Positions 20,337 through 57,180 of a stretch of 64,000 bases of DNA are shown here, in pieces (within the stretch, counting starts at the first letter, position 1; each line of letters begins with the position of its first letter). A program made the position numbers and the translations under genes. The notes below the pieces were generated by a model. It made no database searches and was not told the DNA's origin. It saw nothing but the letters and a program-made list of their open reading frames with translations. The stretch comes from an uncultured Mucilaginibacter sp. (lineage in GTDB: Bacteria > Bacteroidota > Bacteroidia > Sphingobacteriales > Sphingobacteriaceae): the NCBI GenBank assembly GCA_903864275.1, contig CAIPFE010000012.1, forward strand, positions 44,332-108,331, in the 5' to 3' direction.

Positions 20337-21914
20337 TCACCTTCTCATCTTAGCTGCATAAAGTACATAGTTATTGCTAAGCATGGAAAGGTTCCACCCG
20401 GCGTACCCGGGGAATGATTTCATGATCATTTTTTCTTTTGGCCCGTTGTAGCTTTCGGGAAGCACTATATAAAGCGGCCCTGCAAAACCTTCGTATCTAT
20501 AATCGTCAACATCAATTTTGAGGTCATCTTCGATAGGTCTTAGTGTTATGATACGGTTATGAAAAATTTCAAGCCCCATATCATTGCTTACAAAAACAAA
20601 AGTTGCGTTCCGGTTTTCCCTGTCAAGCTTCATGATTTGATTTAGGGACTGCTGATCGATATTTGGCTGGGCTACGCCCGTCGCACCTCTTGGATTTATG
20701 CTGTTTATTCTAAACCCTTTTACTAAATAGGCAAAACTAGTGTACGCTATGCCGGCAAATACAAGCGCAAATAAGAATTTACCCAACGGCCTAAATTTAC
20801 CCACCAAATAAATTACTCCGGGGACAATTAAAAGGCCTATGATGCGAAAATGCCGGGATTCGTACGAGATATTAAGCTGGAGTAAATAAGAGAAACCAAA
20901 AAACAAAATAGCCGCTATGTAAAAAACAACCAGCAACAACCTGTAATGATTGTTTGGCATATAGCGGATAATGTTTAGCAACAGGATTATGCTTAGCATG
21001 GCGATCAATATCAAAATAAGGATGCCGGTGTCTGAATTAAATACTGGTTTCCATGTATGGTAGACGAAGGTGTGAAAAAGATCATCAATTGAAAATCCCG
21101 ATAAAATTGGGGAAGCGATGGGAAAGCTGAAGGTTTGCGCAGTCAGCTTAAAACCGTTTGCCGTTGAAGCAGGGCTTTGGCCTTTTGAAATGTAAAATAT
21201 ATAAATTACGGCCAATGATGCAGCTGCCGGTATAGCTATCCATACGGCTTTTTTTACCCAATCCGCAATACCCGATCGGGTTGAAGATAATCTTATCCAT
21301 AAACAGCATAAGCCTGCAGCATATATCCATAAAAATGATGATTTTAAAAAGAAACCGATCCAGCCTGCAAAAAGCACGAATAATATCAGTTTAAAGCCGG
21401 GCTTATTAAAGGAAAGGCAACCATACAAAAACCAGCCTTCAAAGGCAAATAGCAGCAATTCGCCCCCATTATAATAAACATAAGGTACAACAAAAGCCTG
21501 CTGGCAGATGATAAATAGGAGGCTGATCGTAATTACCCAGGGCGTAAAACCTGCTTTTTTGAAAAAAGCGTAAAACCCGGCCAGTCCGAGTATTTCACAA
21601 ATTGTAACTGTAACAGCTATGGCCTGCCCGGTATCAATTTTAGCAATCAACATAAAACAATAAGGTACAAGGTATTGCCCGGGCGACCACCATGTTAAAA
21701 ATTCGGTATAATTTTGTGATATATCGCTTTGATCAGGGCTTACAAAATTATTAAAACCGCTGCCCATTTGCATGGAACGCAGCACCTGGAATCCCTGCCC
21801 CGGATCAGGAAAAACGGCCGGTGGAATAAAAAATAATATGATTCCAACTAAAATCAGGCCTAAGCCGACTATTGTAAGAACAACTTTATAGGGCTCAATT
21901 TTTGAAGTACTCAT
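20337..21914 (-). CDS. Multi-spanning membrane protein of unknown function (glycosyltransferase-like topology)
   Basis: Many hydrophobic segments; co-directional with the polysaccharide locus; no confident family. Confidence 0.6.
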   Translation of the reverse strand: MSTSKIEPYKVVLTIVGLGLILVGIILFFIPPAVFPDPGQGFQVLRSMQMGSGFNNFVSPDQSDISQNYTEFLTWWSPGQYLVPYCFMLIAKIDTGQAIAVTVTICEILGLAGFYAFFKKAGFTPWVITISLLFIICQQAFVVPYVYYNGGELLLFAFEGWFLYGCLSFNKPGFKLILFVLFAGWIGFFLKSSFLWIYAAGLCCLWIRLSSTRSGIADWVKKAVWIAIPAAASLAVIYIFYISKGQSPASTANGFKLTAQTFSFPIASPILSGFSIDDLFHTFVYHTWKPVFNSDTGILILILIAMLSIILLLNIIRYMPNNHYRLLLVVFYIAAILFFGFSYLLQLNISYESRHFRIIGLLIVPGVIYLVGKFRPLGKFLFALVFAGIAYTSFAYLVKGFRINSINPRGATGVAQPNIDQQSLNQIMKLDRENRNATFVFVSNDMGLEIFHNRIITLRPIEDDLKIDVDDYRYEGFAGPLYIVLPESYNGPKEKMIMKSFPGYAGWNLSMLSNNYVLYAAKMRR

Positions 21915-21933: not shown

Positions 21934-22485
21934 TTACTCGATGGTCCTGGAGCGGACCTTTACGGCCGGGTTTCCCTGGTAGATAGTGTAGGCATCCATG
22001 TTCTTTGTGGCCACAGATCCACTGGTGAGTACTGAATGCGATGCGGCAATCACACCGGCGCTTACTATGGCACAAGCGCCAATCCAAACCCCTTCCTCCA
22101 AAACTACACTTAGCGTTATCAGGTCAAATGATGTTTTTTTATAATTGTGGCTCCCGGTAAGTATCACTGCCCCCTGCGAAATGCAAACATTACTACCGAT
22201 TGTAACCGGAACCAGGCAATCTATCCAAACATTTTCGCCAATCCAAACCTCGTTACCGATTGTCAGCCACCAGGGATATTTTATATTTACACATGGCTTG
22301 ATCTCCACTTGGCTGCCAATTTTTGCCCCGAATAGCCTTAGCAAAAAAACTTTTAAAGCATAAAATGGAAATAAATTTGATTTAAAAAAAACGGTATTGG
22401 TATAGTGCCATAACACCCTTTTAAAAATACTCCCACCCGGATTATAAGGGAAGTTATCATAACTCAACAGATCAGTTTGCTTCAT
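21934..22485 (-). CDS. Colanic-acid-type acetyltransferase (WcaF-like, left-handed beta-helix)
   Basis: FGAKIGSQVEIKPCVNIKYPWWLTIGNEVWIGENVWIDCLVPVTIGSNVCISQGAVILTGSHNYKK. Confidence 0.85.
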   Translation of the reverse strand: MKQTDLLSYDNFPYNPGGSIFKRVLWHYTNTVFFKSNLFPFYALKVFLLRLFGAKIGSQVEIKPCVNIKYPWWLTIGNEVWIGENVWIDCLVPVTIGSNVCISQGAVILTGSHNYKKTSFDLITLSVVLEEGVWIGACAIVSAGVIAASHSVLTSGSVATKNMDAYTIYQGNPAVKVRSRTIE

Positions 22486-23899
22486 TGACGGTTTTATTGT
22501 CGTCTTGTTTCACCCAAAAGTACAGGCTAATTGCGATAACCAGGTAAATAATAATATTAAAAATCGTGTGATGATCAAGGATCAGGGCATGTTGTTTATC
22601 CCAAAATATGGCAAGCACTACAAAGCGTACAATATTTAACAATTCGATGCCCAAAATACCGGTAACCAAAAAAATAATTTTCGATTTCAATTTTTTCGGA
22701 TACGATATAACAAATGCTGCAAAAAAGCTGATAACGCCCAAGCCGAGGCACGAATAAACCAATTTTAGAATTCCGTGGCCGGCTACTAACAGATCGTATT
22801 CATTTGTTATGGCCGCAAAGCCCAGCCAGTTAAGTACCCGGGCACTGCTTTGTAATAATATCCAGCGCAAGCCCTTTATGTAATTTAAATAATCATCAAG
22901 AAATACGCTGTAATAATGATGGCCGCCTGGTAAAGTAATGCTAAAAAAGAAGAGATTAAAGTAATAGAATAAGGGGAACAAAATAATAAAAGATAATACA
23001 AACCTGAAGGGTTCATTTTTCTTATGGTAATCTGTTTGTGCTATTTTTTTTTGCTGCTGGATTTTCTCATCAATTTTAATGTCAACAATCAGCCTGAACC
23101 AAAAGCCCTGCAAAAAATGAAATATCACACCGGTGCGGCCATCAAGTATCCCCAGTTGGAAAAACATCCGATATAAAAAATATACCATAGGCCTTACGTA
23201 TCGGGGTAATTTCCACCATATATTCTTTAGCCAGGCCCGGCGCTCGTCCGGCGAGCCCCAAAAATGAGGCGCAACCGTTTGTGAACGCGTTTGCTCAATG
23301 CGTTCAAGTTCCTCCAGTGCAACGAGGTCACTATAGCGATTATGTTTTTCTATCCAGAAAGCGATCTTGTTTTCTTTTAAATTTTCTTCTAAAATATGGC
23401 CATCTTTCCAAATAATAGTATTGCCAGGCACTACAAAACGATGATCCATATTTTCATTTACGTCTGAATAGCCCATGCCATACCTTATCAGTTTAAGCTG
23501 ATAAAAAGGGTAATAGCCCCCATGCTTTATCCAATGGCCCTTAAAAAAATTTTTACGGTTAAAATATATTCCGTTCACGTGCTTATAATCTTCGTCACGG
23601 AAGTTGGCCAGGCGCTCCCTTAATTCGGGCGTTACAATATGATCAGCGTCTAACCCGATTACCCATGGTGTTTTTATATCGAAATTTTTAAGCGCATAAT
23701 CCCATTGGTTGGGATGATTTTCAAATGAATGCTGCAAAAAAGTAGCACCAAAGCTTTCGCCAATTGCAATTGTATTATCGGTACTACCCGAATCTAATAT
23801 GAAAACCGCGGCATTGAGCGTACTGATAGATTGAAGCAGCCTTGGCAGATGCATTTCTTCATTATAAGTAAGAACGACAAATGAAAACTGGCTGTTCAA
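22472..23899 (-). CDS. Fusion: N-terminal GT2 glycosyltransferase and C-terminal exosortase-family membrane domain
   Basis: FSFVVLTYNEEMHLPRLLQSI...VIGLDADHIVT (GT2) followed by ~8 TM region with exosortase-like Cys (LVYSCLGLGVISFF), Arg (LLNIVRFVVLAIF) and His (LDHHTIFNIIIYLVI). TTG start. Confidence 0.82.
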   Translation of the reverse strand: MNSQFSFVVLTYNEEMHLPRLLQSISTLNAAVFILDSGSTDNTIAIGESFGATFLQHSFENHPNQWDYALKNFDIKTPWVIGLDADHIVTPELRERLANFRDEDYKHVNGIYFNRKNFFKGHWIKHGGYYPFYQLKLIRYGMGYSDVNENMDHRFVVPGNTIIWKDGHILEENLKENKIAFWIEKHNRYSDLVALEELERIEQTRSQTVAPHFWGSPDERRAWLKNIWWKLPRYVRPMVYFLYRMFFQLGILDGRTGVIFHFLQGFWFRLIVDIKIDEKIQQQKKIAQTDYHKKNEPFRFVLSFIILFPLFYYFNLFFFSITLPGGHHYYSVFLDDYLNYIKGLRWILLQSSARVLNWLGFAAITNEYDLLVAGHGILKLVYSCLGLGVISFFAAFVISYPKKLKSKIIFLVTGILGIELLNIVRFVVLAIFWDKQHALILDHHTIFNIIIYLVIAISLYFWVKQDDNKTVNEAN

Positions 23900-23905
23900 G
23901 ATATT

Positions 23906-24211
23906 TTGGCTTTGATGATCATTGATTTTAAACTAGCTCGTTGCTTTAGTCGAAATAGCTTTAACAAATGGTTAGAAACTACCATTTACTACCATTTTAC
24001 TACCATTATTAACGCCTAAAACCATACTGTTTCTCATTTTAACTACCATTTTGGTTCCAAAAAGTACTTATAATTACCAAAGGAAGATAAAAAAACAGTG
24101 AAATTATTTCACTATTAACTATAAAATCAAACCTATCTTCTGACTCAGTCCTCCCTAATCCCAATCGGGAATTCACCCTCAAGTCAGGTTGGCTTTGATG
24201 ATCATTGATTT
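23906..24211. repeat. 23-bp exact direct repeat (TTGGCTTTGATGATCATTGATTT) at both ends of a ~283-bp period
   Basis: Copies at 23906-23928 and 24189-24211; the latter is the 3' end of the methyltransferase gene. Confidence 0.9.
23978..24047. promoter_or_regulatory. ACTACC(ATTT) direct-repeat cluster
   Basis: ACTACC at 23978, 23988, 23999 and 24042; first three spaced 10 and 11 bp. Confidence 0.4.
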
Positions 24212-24799
24212 CCAAAAATAAGGGATTCGTCCGCTACCTTCAAAAGCAGTAACGGTGAAACCGGCGTTGGTTAATACCCGGCTCAACGTTGCCTTCGACC
24301 AAAATTTAATATGCCCGCCATGCCATAACGGGCCATGGTGCGCGTCCCATTTATTAAAAATGCTTAATGCCAGATTTTTTAAATAACCATGATAAGGGGT
24401 CGTTATGATAATTTCACCATTTTTATTTAATACCTGTTTGCAAAAATCAATAAAGCCTTCGGGGTCGTATAAATGCTCAATTACTTCTGTGGAAATGATC
24501 GTATCAAAAGTTAAATTCTGCAGGCCGTCTGGCAATTTACCTGTTGACAGGTCCTGGAGGAAAAATCTATCCGGGTTCGCCTGCCGGGCAATGGCGATCC
24601 CTTTTTCAGATGCATCTGTCCCATAGGCGTTAAAGCCTTTAGCAATAAGATAGTTGGCCAAATACCCGTTACCGCAACCCAAATCCAATATACACCGGTT
24701 CTTGTTTTTATCAAGCACCGAAAGCAAAGGGGGCAGCAGGTAGTCAAAAGTATGGGCTGGCTGGTCAGTATGAAAGCCGTAATCTTTGTAATCCGTCAT
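24179..24799 (-). CDS. Class I SAM-dependent methyltransferase (UbiG-like)
   Basis: ILDLGCGNGYLANYLIAKGFNAYGTDASEKGI; FDTIISTEVIEHLYDPEGFIDFCKQVLNKNGEIIITTPY. Confidence 0.88.
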   Translation of the reverse strand: MTDYKDYGFHTDQPAHTFDYLLPPLLSVLDKNKNRCILDLGCGNGYLANYLIAKGFNAYGTDASEKGIAIARQANPDRFFLQDLSTGKLPDGLQNLTFDTIISTEVIEHLYDPEGFIDFCKQVLNKNGEIIITTPYHGYLKNLALSIFNKWDAHHGPLWHGGHIKFWSKATLSRVLTNAGFTVTAFEGSGRIPYFWKSMIIKANLT

Positions 24800-25935
24800 T
24801 TAGTAATTAATTTTTCATACATAATGATATACTTTTTCACCAAATTGTCTTCATTAAAATCATTATATATAATTCCGGGAGCAGCTTTTCTGATTCTTTC
24901 AAGGTCATGCCGGTGATCTGCAGCAATGTCATTTATACTATTGCTGATTGAATCCGGGTTTGTTTGGCAAACCCAGCCCAGGTTATTCCCCGTTACATAG
25001 TCGGCCAGCCCCACCTGCTCACTTATCAATACCGGCGTTCCAACACTAAGGCTTTCAATTACCGCGTTACCAAAATTTTCATCATAGGACGGCAGTACGA
25101 AAAGATCATGTTCCTGTAGCAGGTCGAATTTGTTCTCGTTGTAAAAGCCCGCCCAGTTTATTTTATTCTCAATAGCATTGTCAACTGCGATCACTTTCAA
25201 ATGTTCTATATAATTCTCATCCCCATCGCCGGCTATGGTGAGCTTAAAAGGGACCGAAACTTTAGTGAGCGCTTTAAACAATATATCTAAACCTTTTTTT
25301 TCTTCTATCCGCGAAAAGAAAAGCAATCTTAAAATAGGAGAATGGCTATGTTCGCGAAAGTTCATTTTCCCGGGTAATTTAACAAAATTTGGCAGTACTG
25401 TGGTGCTTTTTGGGCGAATAAGGCGCTGCATTGCTTTGTTCTCCATCTCGGAAGTTACATGTATGTGGCAACTGTTTAGCAGGTGTTTTCCTAACAAGTT
25501 GTGGATGGCCCATTTTACACCAATGTTTTTATTTTGAAAGGAATATTGACTTAAAGTGCCCCTTGGCGATACTAAAACCGGCACCTTACGCATTAAAGCA
25601 ACCAGGCAGGCAAATATCGATACCAGGTTCCACCAGGCATGGATATGTATTAAGTCAAAATCCGGGCCCTCTTTCCATAATTGTTTTAAAAGCGACGGTG
25701 AAAATTGGGTGTGATCTTTGGTGATCCGTTTAAAATAGCGCACCGGAACTCCGTCTACAATTGTTGTTTGCCCGGGCGATACCGGCAATTCAATTTTTCC
25801 GTTGGCGGTAGTGGTGAAAACTTCCGTGGAAATTCCGGCTTTGGCTAATTGTTCGGTTAACATGGAAACCGACATTGTTGGCCCCCCGTATATAAACGCC
25901 GGTTTATATGCCGCGCAAATCTGTAATATCTTCAA
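24796..25935 (-). CDS. GT4-family glycosyltransferase (possibly the exosortase Y-associated type)
   Basis: MKILQICAAYKPAFIYGGPTMSVSMLTEQLAKAG...VLVSPRGTLSQYSF...LRLLFFSRIEEKKGLDILFKAL...FVLPSYDENFGNAVIESLSVGTPVLIS. Confidence 0.88.
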   Translation of the reverse strand: MKILQICAAYKPAFIYGGPTMSVSMLTEQLAKAGISTEVFTTTANGKIELPVSPGQTTIVDGVPVRYFKRITKDHTQFSPSLLKQLWKEGPDFDLIHIHAWWNLVSIFACLVALMRKVPVLVSPRGTLSQYSFQNKNIGVKWAIHNLLGKHLLNSCHIHVTSEMENKAMQRLIRPKSTTVLPNFVKLPGKMNFREHSHSPILRLLFFSRIEEKKGLDILFKALTKVSVPFKLTIAGDGDENYIEHLKVIAVDNAIENKINWAGFYNENKFDLLQEHDLFVLPSYDENFGNAVIESLSVGTPVLISEQVGLADYVTGNNLGWVCQTNPDSISNSINDIAADHRHDLERIRKAAPGIIYNDFNEDNLVKKYIIMYEKLITK

Positions 25936-27362
25936 ATTTCTTTTAATACTCCTATCGCCCTTAACACCCTGAATAGCATCAGCATACTTATATAACTCCA
26001 GAAAACAGCATTGATAATGAATTCAAAGTTTAGCCCTCTCCAAAAGATCTGAAATAAACCGGTAAAAACGAGCGCCGTGCCCAAGATGTAACCGCCAAAA
26101 AGATGTTCAGCCTGGAGCGAAATTAACTGGGCTATGGCGCCATATAAAAATAATGCTATAAAAACACCCAAGGTACCATCCGAAAGATAGGCATCAACTA
26201 TAAAAGCGGTTTTAGCCGAAGCGCTTGAGCCTCTCTGGACCACGCCCGCGTCGTAAACGCGTTGCATCGCGAGTTCTTCTGTTATCGGTTTTGCCGGCCA
26301 GAATATACGCGGAACAACAGCGATGGCGGACTGTTGTAACAATTGAAAGCCATAATAGTCGATGTTTGCAGGTGTTGATTTTACGAACGTAGTAAACATA
26401 TCAATTTCACTTAGCCTGAAAACAAGGAAGGCCCATTCTGTATCGTCTTTTGATGACTCATTGTGATTAATTGCGGCATCAAGCGCAAGCGAATAGGCGT
26501 CATCAGCAGCAACGTCGCCTTCCCAGTTATTTTCGCGAAATACCTTGTTAAAGGTGGGGAGCAATGCAAATAGTATTAACAGAGCCGGTATGAAGATTAC
26601 AAGTACCAGTTTTTTATAATTAGGGTATAAAAATACCCCCAACACTAATACACTGATAATAATAGGTTCCTTAAAACCCGAAGTGAGCGCCTGGTAAAAG
26701 TTAGAGCCAAAAAGCAAAGCACAAAGAATTGTATTCCCTATTTTTTTTAGGGGTATGGCAAATGCGAGGGCAAGGGTACCAGCAATAAAGCTTAAGGAAC
26801 TGTATTGATAATAAAACTGACTTAAGCCCGCAACTTTCGAGAACGCCACAGAAACCGGCAAGGCTATTAAAGCGATCAACAATAATACATTTGCCAGTTT
26901 TTCTTTTTGAACATGATACTTCTGCTTATCCGGGTACTTCATAAAAGCGATGACACCAGTTACGAAAGCGGCATGGCCCAGCACATAGTAACGTTGACAA
27001 ATTGCGGTTAATTCTAAATTTTCCTGGTCGACAGAAAAATAAGAATTACTCGTCCTATGAAAATCCTCAAATCCTAAAACGTTCAGAAAATAAAAAATTG
27101 AACTAACGGCCATATAGCCTATAAATATGATCTGGACCAGGAAAATTGGCCGCATTAACTGTTCAGCTATGGCCCTGTCTCTAGGGATAGGCCTTATCCA
27201 TCCGCTCATGGTCAGGTAAAGAATTAACAATGAACCCAGCCACGCGATGAAATATGATAAAATAGGATCAGATTGAAACAATAGAGCAAGCGCCCAGGGC
27301 AAGTAGAGCACTAGATATCGTTCAATCGGTCGATTTTTATTCATATTTAATAACTGACTCAA
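25932..27362 (-). CDS. Wzy-like O-antigen/exopolysaccharide polymerase
   Basis: Polytopic; large loops; position between glycosyltransferase genes; IFWPAKPITEELAMQ...DAYLSDGTLGVFIALFLYG. Confidence 0.7.
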   Translation of the reverse strand: MSQLLNMNKNRPIERYLVLYLPWALALLFQSDPILSYFIAWLGSLLILYLTMSGWIRPIPRDRAIAEQLMRPIFLVQIIFIGYMAVSSIFYFLNVLGFEDFHRTSNSYFSVDQENLELTAICQRYYVLGHAAFVTGVIAFMKYPDKQKYHVQKEKLANVLLLIALIALPVSVAFSKVAGLSQFYYQYSSLSFIAGTLALAFAIPLKKIGNTILCALLFGSNFYQALTSGFKEPIIISVLVLGVFLYPNYKKLVLVIFIPALLILFALLPTFNKVFRENNWEGDVAADDAYSLALDAAINHNESSKDDTEWAFLVFRLSEIDMFTTFVKSTPANIDYYGFQLLQQSAIAVVPRIFWPAKPITEELAMQRVYDAGVVQRGSSASAKTAFIVDAYLSDGTLGVFIALFLYGAIAQLISLQAEHLFGGYILGTALVFTGLFQIFWRGLNFEFIINAVFWSYISMLMLFRVLRAIGVLKEI

Positions 27363-55556: not shown

Positions 55557-56342
55557 TTATCTATGGATTAGCGTGTAAAGAATTAGCACTGTATTAAATA
55601 AAATCAAAACCGGTTGGAATAAAGTCGAAAAGTTTTGCAAATTATCCCCGCGTGCAGCGCGTTTGCTTTGGGCAACATAAATTATGTCGCCGCTTTGAAG
55701 TATTGTGCTTGGATCATTTATTGACCGGATATTATTAAGATCAATTTCGATTACCTTCGGGTTTTTCTCGGTTCCCCTTATAATTTTAACATTTTTTTCG
55801 TTTGCCTTGTCGGTAAGGCCCCCTGCTTCGCCAATGAGTTCGACCAGGGTTATTTTATCTTTCGTCAATAAATAGTTTCCCTGGCTCCTTATCTCGCCAA
55901 GAATTGTTACTTTCAGGTTAACTATCTTTAGATCAATAATTGGATCTTTGAGCAAACTTTTATGATAAAGGTCTTCAATCAGCTTTTGAGCTTCAACCCG
56001 AGTGAGCCCGGCAACCGGTATTCGGCCGAGGGCAGGCAAAGCAACTGTTCCGTCCTCTTCTACCTGGAAAGTTTGTCCTTGCGCGGCATTCCCACCGGTG
56101 GTATTAGCATTGAGCGGGGCGTCATTTGCAATATATTTGATATCCTGCAGGTTCCTGATCTGTAAGAGGTCCTGGGATTTTATATGATATTCACTAAGTG
56201 TAAGCGGGCTTTTTTGCGACAGCGTATCTGAGATTGAATTTTTTTCCTGAAAAAGAGCCTGGTACTGCTTATCAGAGCATGATGTACAAATAAGAATTGC
56301 CCCTAAGATCAGGGATGAAAGTATTAATTGACGCATATACAC
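55557..56342 (-). CDS. Polysaccharide export outer-membrane lipoprotein (Wza-like, SLBB)
   Basis: Lipobox CTSC; YHIKSQDLLQIRNLQDI; VEEDGTVALPALGRIPVAGLTRVEAQKLIEDLYHKSLLKDPIIDLKIVNLKVTILGEIRSQGNYLL. Confidence 0.93.
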   Translation of the reverse strand: MYMRQLILSSLILGAILICTSCSDKQYQALFQEKNSISDTLSQKSPLTLSEYHIKSQDLLQIRNLQDIKYIANDAPLNANTTGGNAAQGQTFQVEEDGTVALPALGRIPVAGLTRVEAQKLIEDLYHKSLLKDPIIDLKIVNLKVTILGEIRSQGNYLLTKDKITLVELIGEAGGLTDKANEKNVKIIRGTEKNPKVIEIDLNNIRSINDPSTILQSGDIIYVAQSKRAARGDNLQNFSTLFQPVLILFNTVLILYTLIHR

Positions 56343-56430
56343 ATCAGTTCTGGTGCTGTTTATTTAAATTAGGTAACGATGTCAAATTTACATAATTTTA
56401 CGAGTATAAACAGTTTATTGTTTCTTTAGC

Positions 56431-57180
56431 GTGCAGGATTTAAAAATTTCTTTGATAACTGTCTGCTTCAATGCCGAAAACACTATTAATCAATGTATTC
56501 AATCAGTTTTTCGTCAGAACTATAAAAATATTGAATATATAATTGTCGACGGTGGGTCAACCGATAATACCAGCCATATTATTAGTCAATACAAGGATAA
56601 GATAAATATTTTTTTATCAGAACCGGATGCAGGTATTTATGACGCCATGAATAAAGGTATTAAATTGGCTGACGGGGATATTATTGGAATGCTTAATGCG
56701 GATGACGCCTTTGCTGATGATAATATTTTAAGCATAGTAGCCGAGGCCTTTAAGCAAAGCGATGCCCGAATTATATATGGCGATCTTGATTATGTAAACT
56801 CACAAGGCCATATTGTCCGCAAATGGCGCTCGGGGCAATATTCACACGGTATCTTCAACTGGGGATGGATGCCCCCGCACCCCACTTTTTACTGTAATAG
56901 GGAATTATTTCATCAATTTGGCTTTTATAGTCTCGAATATGGAACCGCTGCAGATTATGAATTGATGCTAAGATTTATGCACCACAACAGGATTAAAGCC
57001 TTTTACATAAAAAAAGTTTTAATTGGTATGAAAATTGGAGGAATTAGTAACAAAAGTTTTGGTAATCGCGTAAAAGGATTATTCTTTGATTTTAAGGCAA
57101 TGCGTAACAATGGTATTTTACTTCCGGTAGTAACATTAATATGTAAGCCTTTACGAAAGATTAATCAATATTTTAAATGA
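56431..57180 (+). CDS. GT2-family glycosyltransferase
   Basis: DLKISLITVCFNAENTINQCIQSVFRQNYKNIEYIIVDGGSTDNTSHII...GTAADYELMLRFMHHN; GTG start. Confidence 0.93.
   Translation: MQDLKISLITVCFNAENTINQCIQSVFRQNYKNIEYIIVDGGSTDNTSHIISQYKDKINIFLSEPDAGIYDAMNKGIKLADGDIIGMLNADDAFADDNILSIVAEAFKQSDARIIYGDLDYVNSQGHIVRKWRSGQYSHGIFNWGWMPPHPTFYCNRELFHQFGFYSLEYGTAADYELMLRFMHHNRIKAFYIKKVLIGMKIGGISNKSFGNRVKGLFFDFKAMRNNGILLPVVTLICKPLRKINQYFK

Follow-up and report, generated by a model that had tools for sequence, protein, structure and literature searches.

The 64,000-nucleotide stretch of DNA from a soil bacterium, an uncultured Mucilaginibacter sp., that we analysed (hereafter the window) carries a single gene for a GT2 glycosyltransferase and an exosortase. 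This raises the questions of which proteins such an enzyme sorts, to which acceptor it would hand them and what the glycosyltransferase contributes. To our knowledge, what exosortases attach their proteins to has been an open question ever since the first description of the system, and several exosortases of Bacteroidota have no known targets. The exosortase Y (XrtY) family, the XrtY-associated glycosyltransferase XYAG1 and the associated Wzy-like protein are already known as NCBIfam models. New here is a set of previously unnamed small proteins, found by comparing about 400 related genomes, which judging from this comparison are probably cut by XrtY. As the best explanation overall, sorting mechanism included, we propose with reasonable though not high confidence that a GT2 operon partner became the N-terminal domain of a working exosortase Y.

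A GT2 glycosyltransferase and an exosortase Y in one frame

The gene is a single open frame of 475 codons on the minus strand, opposite a plus strand riddled with stops. It divides as follows:

22472 to 23899, minus strand: GT2-XrtY fusion, 475 residues, TTG start (NF046083, PF00535, AlphaFold2 model)
23030 to 23899, minus strand: GT2 domain, residues 1 to 290 (PF00535; conservation in 52 homologues; ThuS/SunS fold matches)
22472 to 23017, minus strand: exosortase Y domain, residues 295 to 475 plus stop (NF046083; 58-sequence alignment; separate domain model)

A sequence-only reading of this DNA had proposed that one frame joins a GT2 enzyme to an exosortase domain and had called for a search against exosortase models. 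That search bears the proposal out. PF00535 (GT2) matched residues 6 to 121 with 48.2 bits (gathering threshold 23.3), and the exosortase Y model NF046083 matched residues 295 to 463 over model positions 2 to 168 of 168 with 229 bits (cut-off 160). TIGR04178, the signature of exosortases and archaeosortases in general, likewise scored above its cut-off (39 bits, cut-off 23), and the Exosortase X model NF046081 scored 68 bits, below its cut-off of 170. We regard the exosortase half as XrtY with near certainty. When the window's genome (G000) was searched with TIGR04178, one exosortase was detected, and it is the fusion.

The exopolysaccharide gene cluster

The genes around the fusion, and a gap at the far end of the cluster, are:

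20337 to 21914, minus strand: polytopic protein of 525 residues, GT-C-like by inspection, no strong family match; co-located in several XrtY loci
21934 to 22485, minus strand: WcaF/HpsU-like O-acetyltransferase, its start overlapping the end of the fusion gene; the usual next gene, in conserved position (NF007797, 214 bits)
24179 to 24799, minus strand: SAM methyltransferase, an optional member upstream of GT2 (PF13489, 87 bits)
24796 to 25935, minus strand: XYAG1, the XrtY-associated GT4 glycosyltransferase, HpsP-like (NF046085, 568 bits)
25932 to 27362, minus strand: XrtY-associated Wzy-like protein (NF046084, 727 bits)
56343 to 56430, no strand: empty gap between a Wza-like gene (55557 to 56342) and a GT2 gene (56431 to 57180); in related genomes (loci L189 to L199) it holds genes for the P-[L/I]-D-CTERM proteins described below

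The earlier statement that XrtY comes with an associated glycosyltransferase and a Wzy-like protein was right, the NF046085 and NF046084 matches lying adjacent to the fusion. Farther along the cluster, inspection of the encoded proteins showed GT4 and FkbM genes and then, at 53 to 59 kb, Wza, Wzc, a WecA-like gene and GAPDH.

Two smaller features were seen. An AT-rich segment of 280 bp (23900 to 24178), with aatggtagt repeats and a 22-bp sequence in near-copies at either end, separates the fusion from the methyltransferase gene; these near-copies suggest that an insertion or duplication displaced the 3' end of the methyltransferase gene. In eight other loci (L035, L039, L044, L068, L072, L076, L079, L084), a protein of 570 to 584 residues replaces the acetyltransferase after XrtY; those whose sequences we inspected are NodU-like carbamoyltransferases, as though one glycan decoration could be exchanged for another.

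Fused and split states of the GT2-XrtY pair

We surveyed 151 Sphingobacteriaceae genomes and the 20-kb surroundings of their exosortase loci. An exosortase match was found in 63 of the 151 genomes, and the XrtY cut-off was exceeded in 44. Fifty-eight loci had a BLAST match to the XrtY domain; two of them, L086 and L087, are XrtX-like and were left out, giving 56 XrtY loci. GT2 and XrtY were fused in 11 of these, which span four genera, and separate in 45. The survey of conservation called for earlier thus finds a fusion that recurs in at least four genera. In 41 of the 45 unfused loci, GT2 lies directly upstream of XrtY, mostly overlapping it or a few tens of bases away, so adjacency and not fusion is the rule: the fusion is one state of a conserved two-gene pair. 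The fused frame also occurs in the named assemblies of Mucilaginibacter flavus, M. dorajii and M. arboris, and among the matches listed in the larger survey of 401 genomes (see below) at least 37 XrtY matches lie in open frames of at least 472 residues. Together, these fused frames argue that the fusion is no assembly artefact. Two XrtY copies were seen in M. flavus (L113, L114) and also in genomes G730 and G774.

Fusion is not required, since close relatives are split: the nearest relative that we found (L118, from a metagenome-assembled genome; 77% in the GT2 segment) has separate genes. The two also do not co-evolve tightly. In ten loci (L041 and nine others) a divergent GT2 fills the slot before XrtY, and in L041 the XrtY stays similar, showing that the GT2 can be exchanged, as if its sugar specificity had been swapped.

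These observations bear on the possibility that the fusion is a neutral accident of the operon, in which a small indel joined adjacent and often overlapping pathway genes and left the domains independent, XrtY in sorting and GT2 in exopolysaccharide synthesis. The split genes often overlap by 4 to 26 nt, so a single frameshift can fuse them. Fused and split states also alternate on the GT2 tree, with five changes of which at least two are forced by well-supported branches, and the split state of the closest relative fits as well. However, the adjacency of GT2 is itself kept in nearly all unfused loci, the fused form is retained, with both active sites intact, by dozens of genomes from four genera, and a near-continuous helix spans the junction in the predicted model. 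We think a neutral accident unlikely, though with a substantial share of the probability, and continue with the reading in which GT2 became a domain of a working exosortase.

Active sites and membrane topology

The sequence-only reading had picked out Cys, Arg and His residues in the order expected of an exosortase. They are Cys384, Arg425 and His443, and in the alignment of 58 XrtY or XrtX-like proteins all three are invariant, as are Asn422, His444, Tyr452 and Phe300. The GT2 site is likewise intact, with D84 and D86 (the DxD motif), D152 and H186 invariant among 52 GT2 homologues.

AlphaFold2 predicted the fusion with a pLDDT of 94.4 and a pTM of 0.75, and the exosortase domain modelled alone with a pLDDT of 91.4. 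In the predicted model, a long helix (residues 250 to 294) follows GT2 and runs nearly without a break into the first membrane helix (296 to 322) of a polytopic domain. Cys384 opens a helix, Arg425 comes close to the end of the following one and His443 opens the last; the three residues sit at helix ends on one common face. The structure prediction proposed earlier thus gave a confident model with the active-site residues together. No solved exosortase relative was found in the PDB by sequence, nor by fold with Foldseek.

On the opposite face of the model, the loop at residues 400 to 405 (YPKKLK) is basic. Because of this loop, we infer that the Cys/Arg/His cluster faces the periplasm and that the GT2 site is cytoplasmic. 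On this topology we rejected the earlier suggestion that the fused glycosyltransferase would physically couple sugar transfer to the sorting site. The geometry makes it unlikely, the two active sites being placed on opposite faces of the membrane; any coupling between GT2 and exosortase would therefore need a product that crosses it.

Candidate substrates

We scanned the surroundings of exosortase loci for proteins with a signal peptide, a C-terminal helix and a basic tail. This first scan found no recurrent neighbour of XrtY with such a tripartite signal, and as a positive control it recovered PID-CTERM-like proteins adjoining XrtX-like genes. The PEP-CTERM model TIGR02595 had no match in the window's genome, nor any in its control, and was dropped as a probe for substrates. 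Genome searches with the PID-CTERM model NF046080 found this signal in three genomes whose only exosortase is XrtY (G071, G108, G113), and weak matches in frames of about 80 residues in the window's genus.

The set that emerged consists of secreted proteins of 71 to 85 residues that end in P-[L/I/V/F]-D, a helix and a basic tail. Nearly all of them adjoin a large protein with a C terminus like those of the type IX secretion system (T9SS), suggesting that the small P-[L/I]-D-CTERM protein and its large neighbour form functional pairs. Tail genes beside very large T9SS-like proteins were seen in loci L138 to L142, L150, L157, L188, L200, L202, L205 and others. The tail also hints at how exosortase sorting comes together with exopolysaccharide and the surface proteins of the T9SS in Sphingobacteriaceae.

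One such protein is encoded in the window's own genome (G000:C10, equivalent to L188:7115-7345). Identified with the first profile, it has 76 residues with the C-terminal sequence DATCPLDTWVIVLAAAAFIFATLKLYRKQ... and sits directly behind a T9SS type A protein of 1233 residues, the one neighbour on which the T9SS family model was run (TIGR04183, 33 bits). The candidate has no NCBIfam or Pfam match, and the other tails tested against these databases gave at most weak models below their cut-offs. The genome-wide search for tripartite tails that had been proposed therefore yields one P-L-D-CTERM protein. The earlier statement that no sorting substrate is present holds for the window, where no frame has a P-x-D tail, but not for the genome, which encodes this strong candidate.

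The first profile also found, in another genus, arrays of proteins of 112 to 193 residues with CPLDDY-type ends. In every one of the 11 loci inspected, the array adjoins Wza at the distal end of the exopolysaccharide cluster, mostly in the gap between Wza and a GT2 gene; in 33 genomes, tail-protein arrays lie 26 to 48 kb from XrtY.

Two other candidates were set aside. PID-CTERM was rejected as the signal of the window's genome, its model having no match in the candidate and a best match in the genome of 13.9 bits against a cut-off of 26. A group of signal-plus-helix proteins of 81 to 93 residues ending in WYAQPWVWVVG... (L058, L062, L064, L074) lacks the P-x-D motif and lies several kb from XrtY.

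The fold of the GT2 domain is matched best by ThuS and SunS; when sequence is considered as well as fold, its nearest relatives of known structure are GmaR, SunS and ThuS. Like these protein and peptide glycosyltransferases, the GT2 might directly glycosylate the sorted proteins or anchor peptides, and many tails do have a Cys immediately before the motif (CPLD). However, the sequences are only weakly similar (E 1e-2 to 1e-4), and in fold the domain matches GT-A enzymes in general. Tails with VPID and APID also occur, so the Cys is not invariant, and the candidate substrates would be exported by Sec while the GT2 is placed in the cytoplasm. We consider direct glycosylation improbable and prefer a GT2 acting on the glycan side of the pathway.

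Co-occurrence of XrtY and the tail proteins

We built a second profile, using 49 tails from the genomes sampled first, and searched 401 Sphingobacteriaceae genomes with it and with the XrtY model. Genome lists were transcribed by hand, and matches at about E 1e-3 or worse were set aside as weak. A tail match was present in 173 of 175 genomes with XrtY, versus 14 of 226 without (Fisher p about 1e-93). Among the 250 genomes outside the profile sample, the tails occurred in 119 of 119 with XrtY versus 7 of 131 without (p about 1e-63); both p values are uncorrected for shared ancestry. All 74 XrtY genomes of the window's genus had tails. The two exceptions with XrtY, G097 and G140, missed the strict tail criterion. 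Eight tail-positive genomes had no detectable exosortase, TIGR04178 being negative in all eight.

XrtY might instead lack a protein substrate and act on polysaccharide chains only, as could be guessed for any exosortase with no known target. The absence of a tripartite protein from the window and from the immediate neighbourhood of XrtY, where the neighbours are polysaccharide genes, would agree with this. Against it stand the almost complete co-occurrence with P-[L/I]-D-CTERM proteins, which extends to the held-out genomes, and the linkage of tail genes at the distal end of the cluster. We judge a polysaccharide-only role highly improbable and the P-[L/I]-D-CTERM proteins very probably the substrates of XrtY. 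In the curated families and the open literature we found no description of them as XrtY targets, and in the open literature none naming XrtY, XrtX or PID-CTERM in the exosortase sense.

Proposed mechanism

In the mechanism that we propose, the small preproteins would be exported via Sec and held in the inner membrane by the C-terminal P-[L/I]-D motif, helix and basic tail. The periplasmic Cys384, with Arg425 and His443, would cut at the motif and form a thioester, from which the cleaved protein would pass to an acceptor belonging to the same envelope-glycan pathway. The cytoplasmic GT2 would most likely add a sugar to a lipid-linked glycan, and this glycan, after flipping, would be the acceptor. 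Computation shows both domains with intact active sites, the conserved GT2-XrtY pair, its recurrent fusion, the co-occurrence and partial linkage of the tails and a sole detected exosortase; we infer the cleavage, the thioester, the identity of the acceptor and the role of GT2. That the GT2 makes or modifies the acceptor is our tentative suggestion. More speculative, and on the doubtful side, is the idea that the fusion is a protein-to-glycan ligase, in which a lipid-linked exopolysaccharide precursor receives its sugar end from the GT2 half and the exosortase half joins the new C terminus of secreted proteins to that glycan; acceptors in this group would then be sugars, not lipids.

A natural fusion, a conserved glycosyltransferase-exosortase pair and a defined candidate set, with one protein in this genome, make the acceptor question easier to test, bringing it within reach of a handful of gene deletions and mass spectra in soil bacteria that can be cultured.

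Comparison with known systems

A neighbouring gene has pointed to an acceptor before. In Methanosarcina, pssA, which lies beside artA, led to enzymes that ArtA-dependent lipid attachment requires (PMC7157517). In that system of archaeosortase A with PssA and PssD, as here, a gene neighbour pointed to the enzymes of the presumed acceptor, but the acceptor there is a lipid, whereas we propose a glycan. The fusion matches Exosortase Y (NF046083) above the cut-off and over the full model length, with XYAG1 and Wzy adjacent. It differs in that GT2 is fused, and its target signal is here proposed from genome comparison.

The XrtF of Flavobacterium johnsoniae is needed for biofilm formation and surface colonisation (PMC10936215). 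It resembles XrtY as an exosortase of Bacteroidota with no PEP-CTERM target, but the XrtF model scored the fusion at 44 bits against a cut-off of 90, and the partner of XrtF is a different protein. Cyanoexosortase B of Nostoc is tied to hormogonium polysaccharide and has PEP-CTERM targets (PMC12188702), and both systems affect adhesion and biofilm (PMC10936215, PMC12188702). Like XrtY, cyanoexosortase B is linked to exopolysaccharide, and XYAG1 resembles HpsP and the acetyltransferase HpsU, both below the cut-offs of the Hps models. It differs in its PEP-CTERM targets, and a glycosyltransferase fusion is not reported for it. In Fischerella thermalis (L119), a GT2 with 35% identity adjoins HpsJ in the hormogonium polysaccharide locus; GT2 enzymes are common and the identity is 35%, so we treat this resemblance as a lead only.

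Exosortase X with PID-CTERM (NF046081, NF046080) is a related exosortase with a related tripartite tail bearing a P-I-D type motif, and a substrate-like gene adjoins XrtX in some loci. The XrtX-like loci that we inspected differ in having no GT2 pair. One genome of the window's genus (G146) encodes three XrtX-like exosortases (L086, L087, L088) with PID-CTERM-like neighbours and no XrtY.
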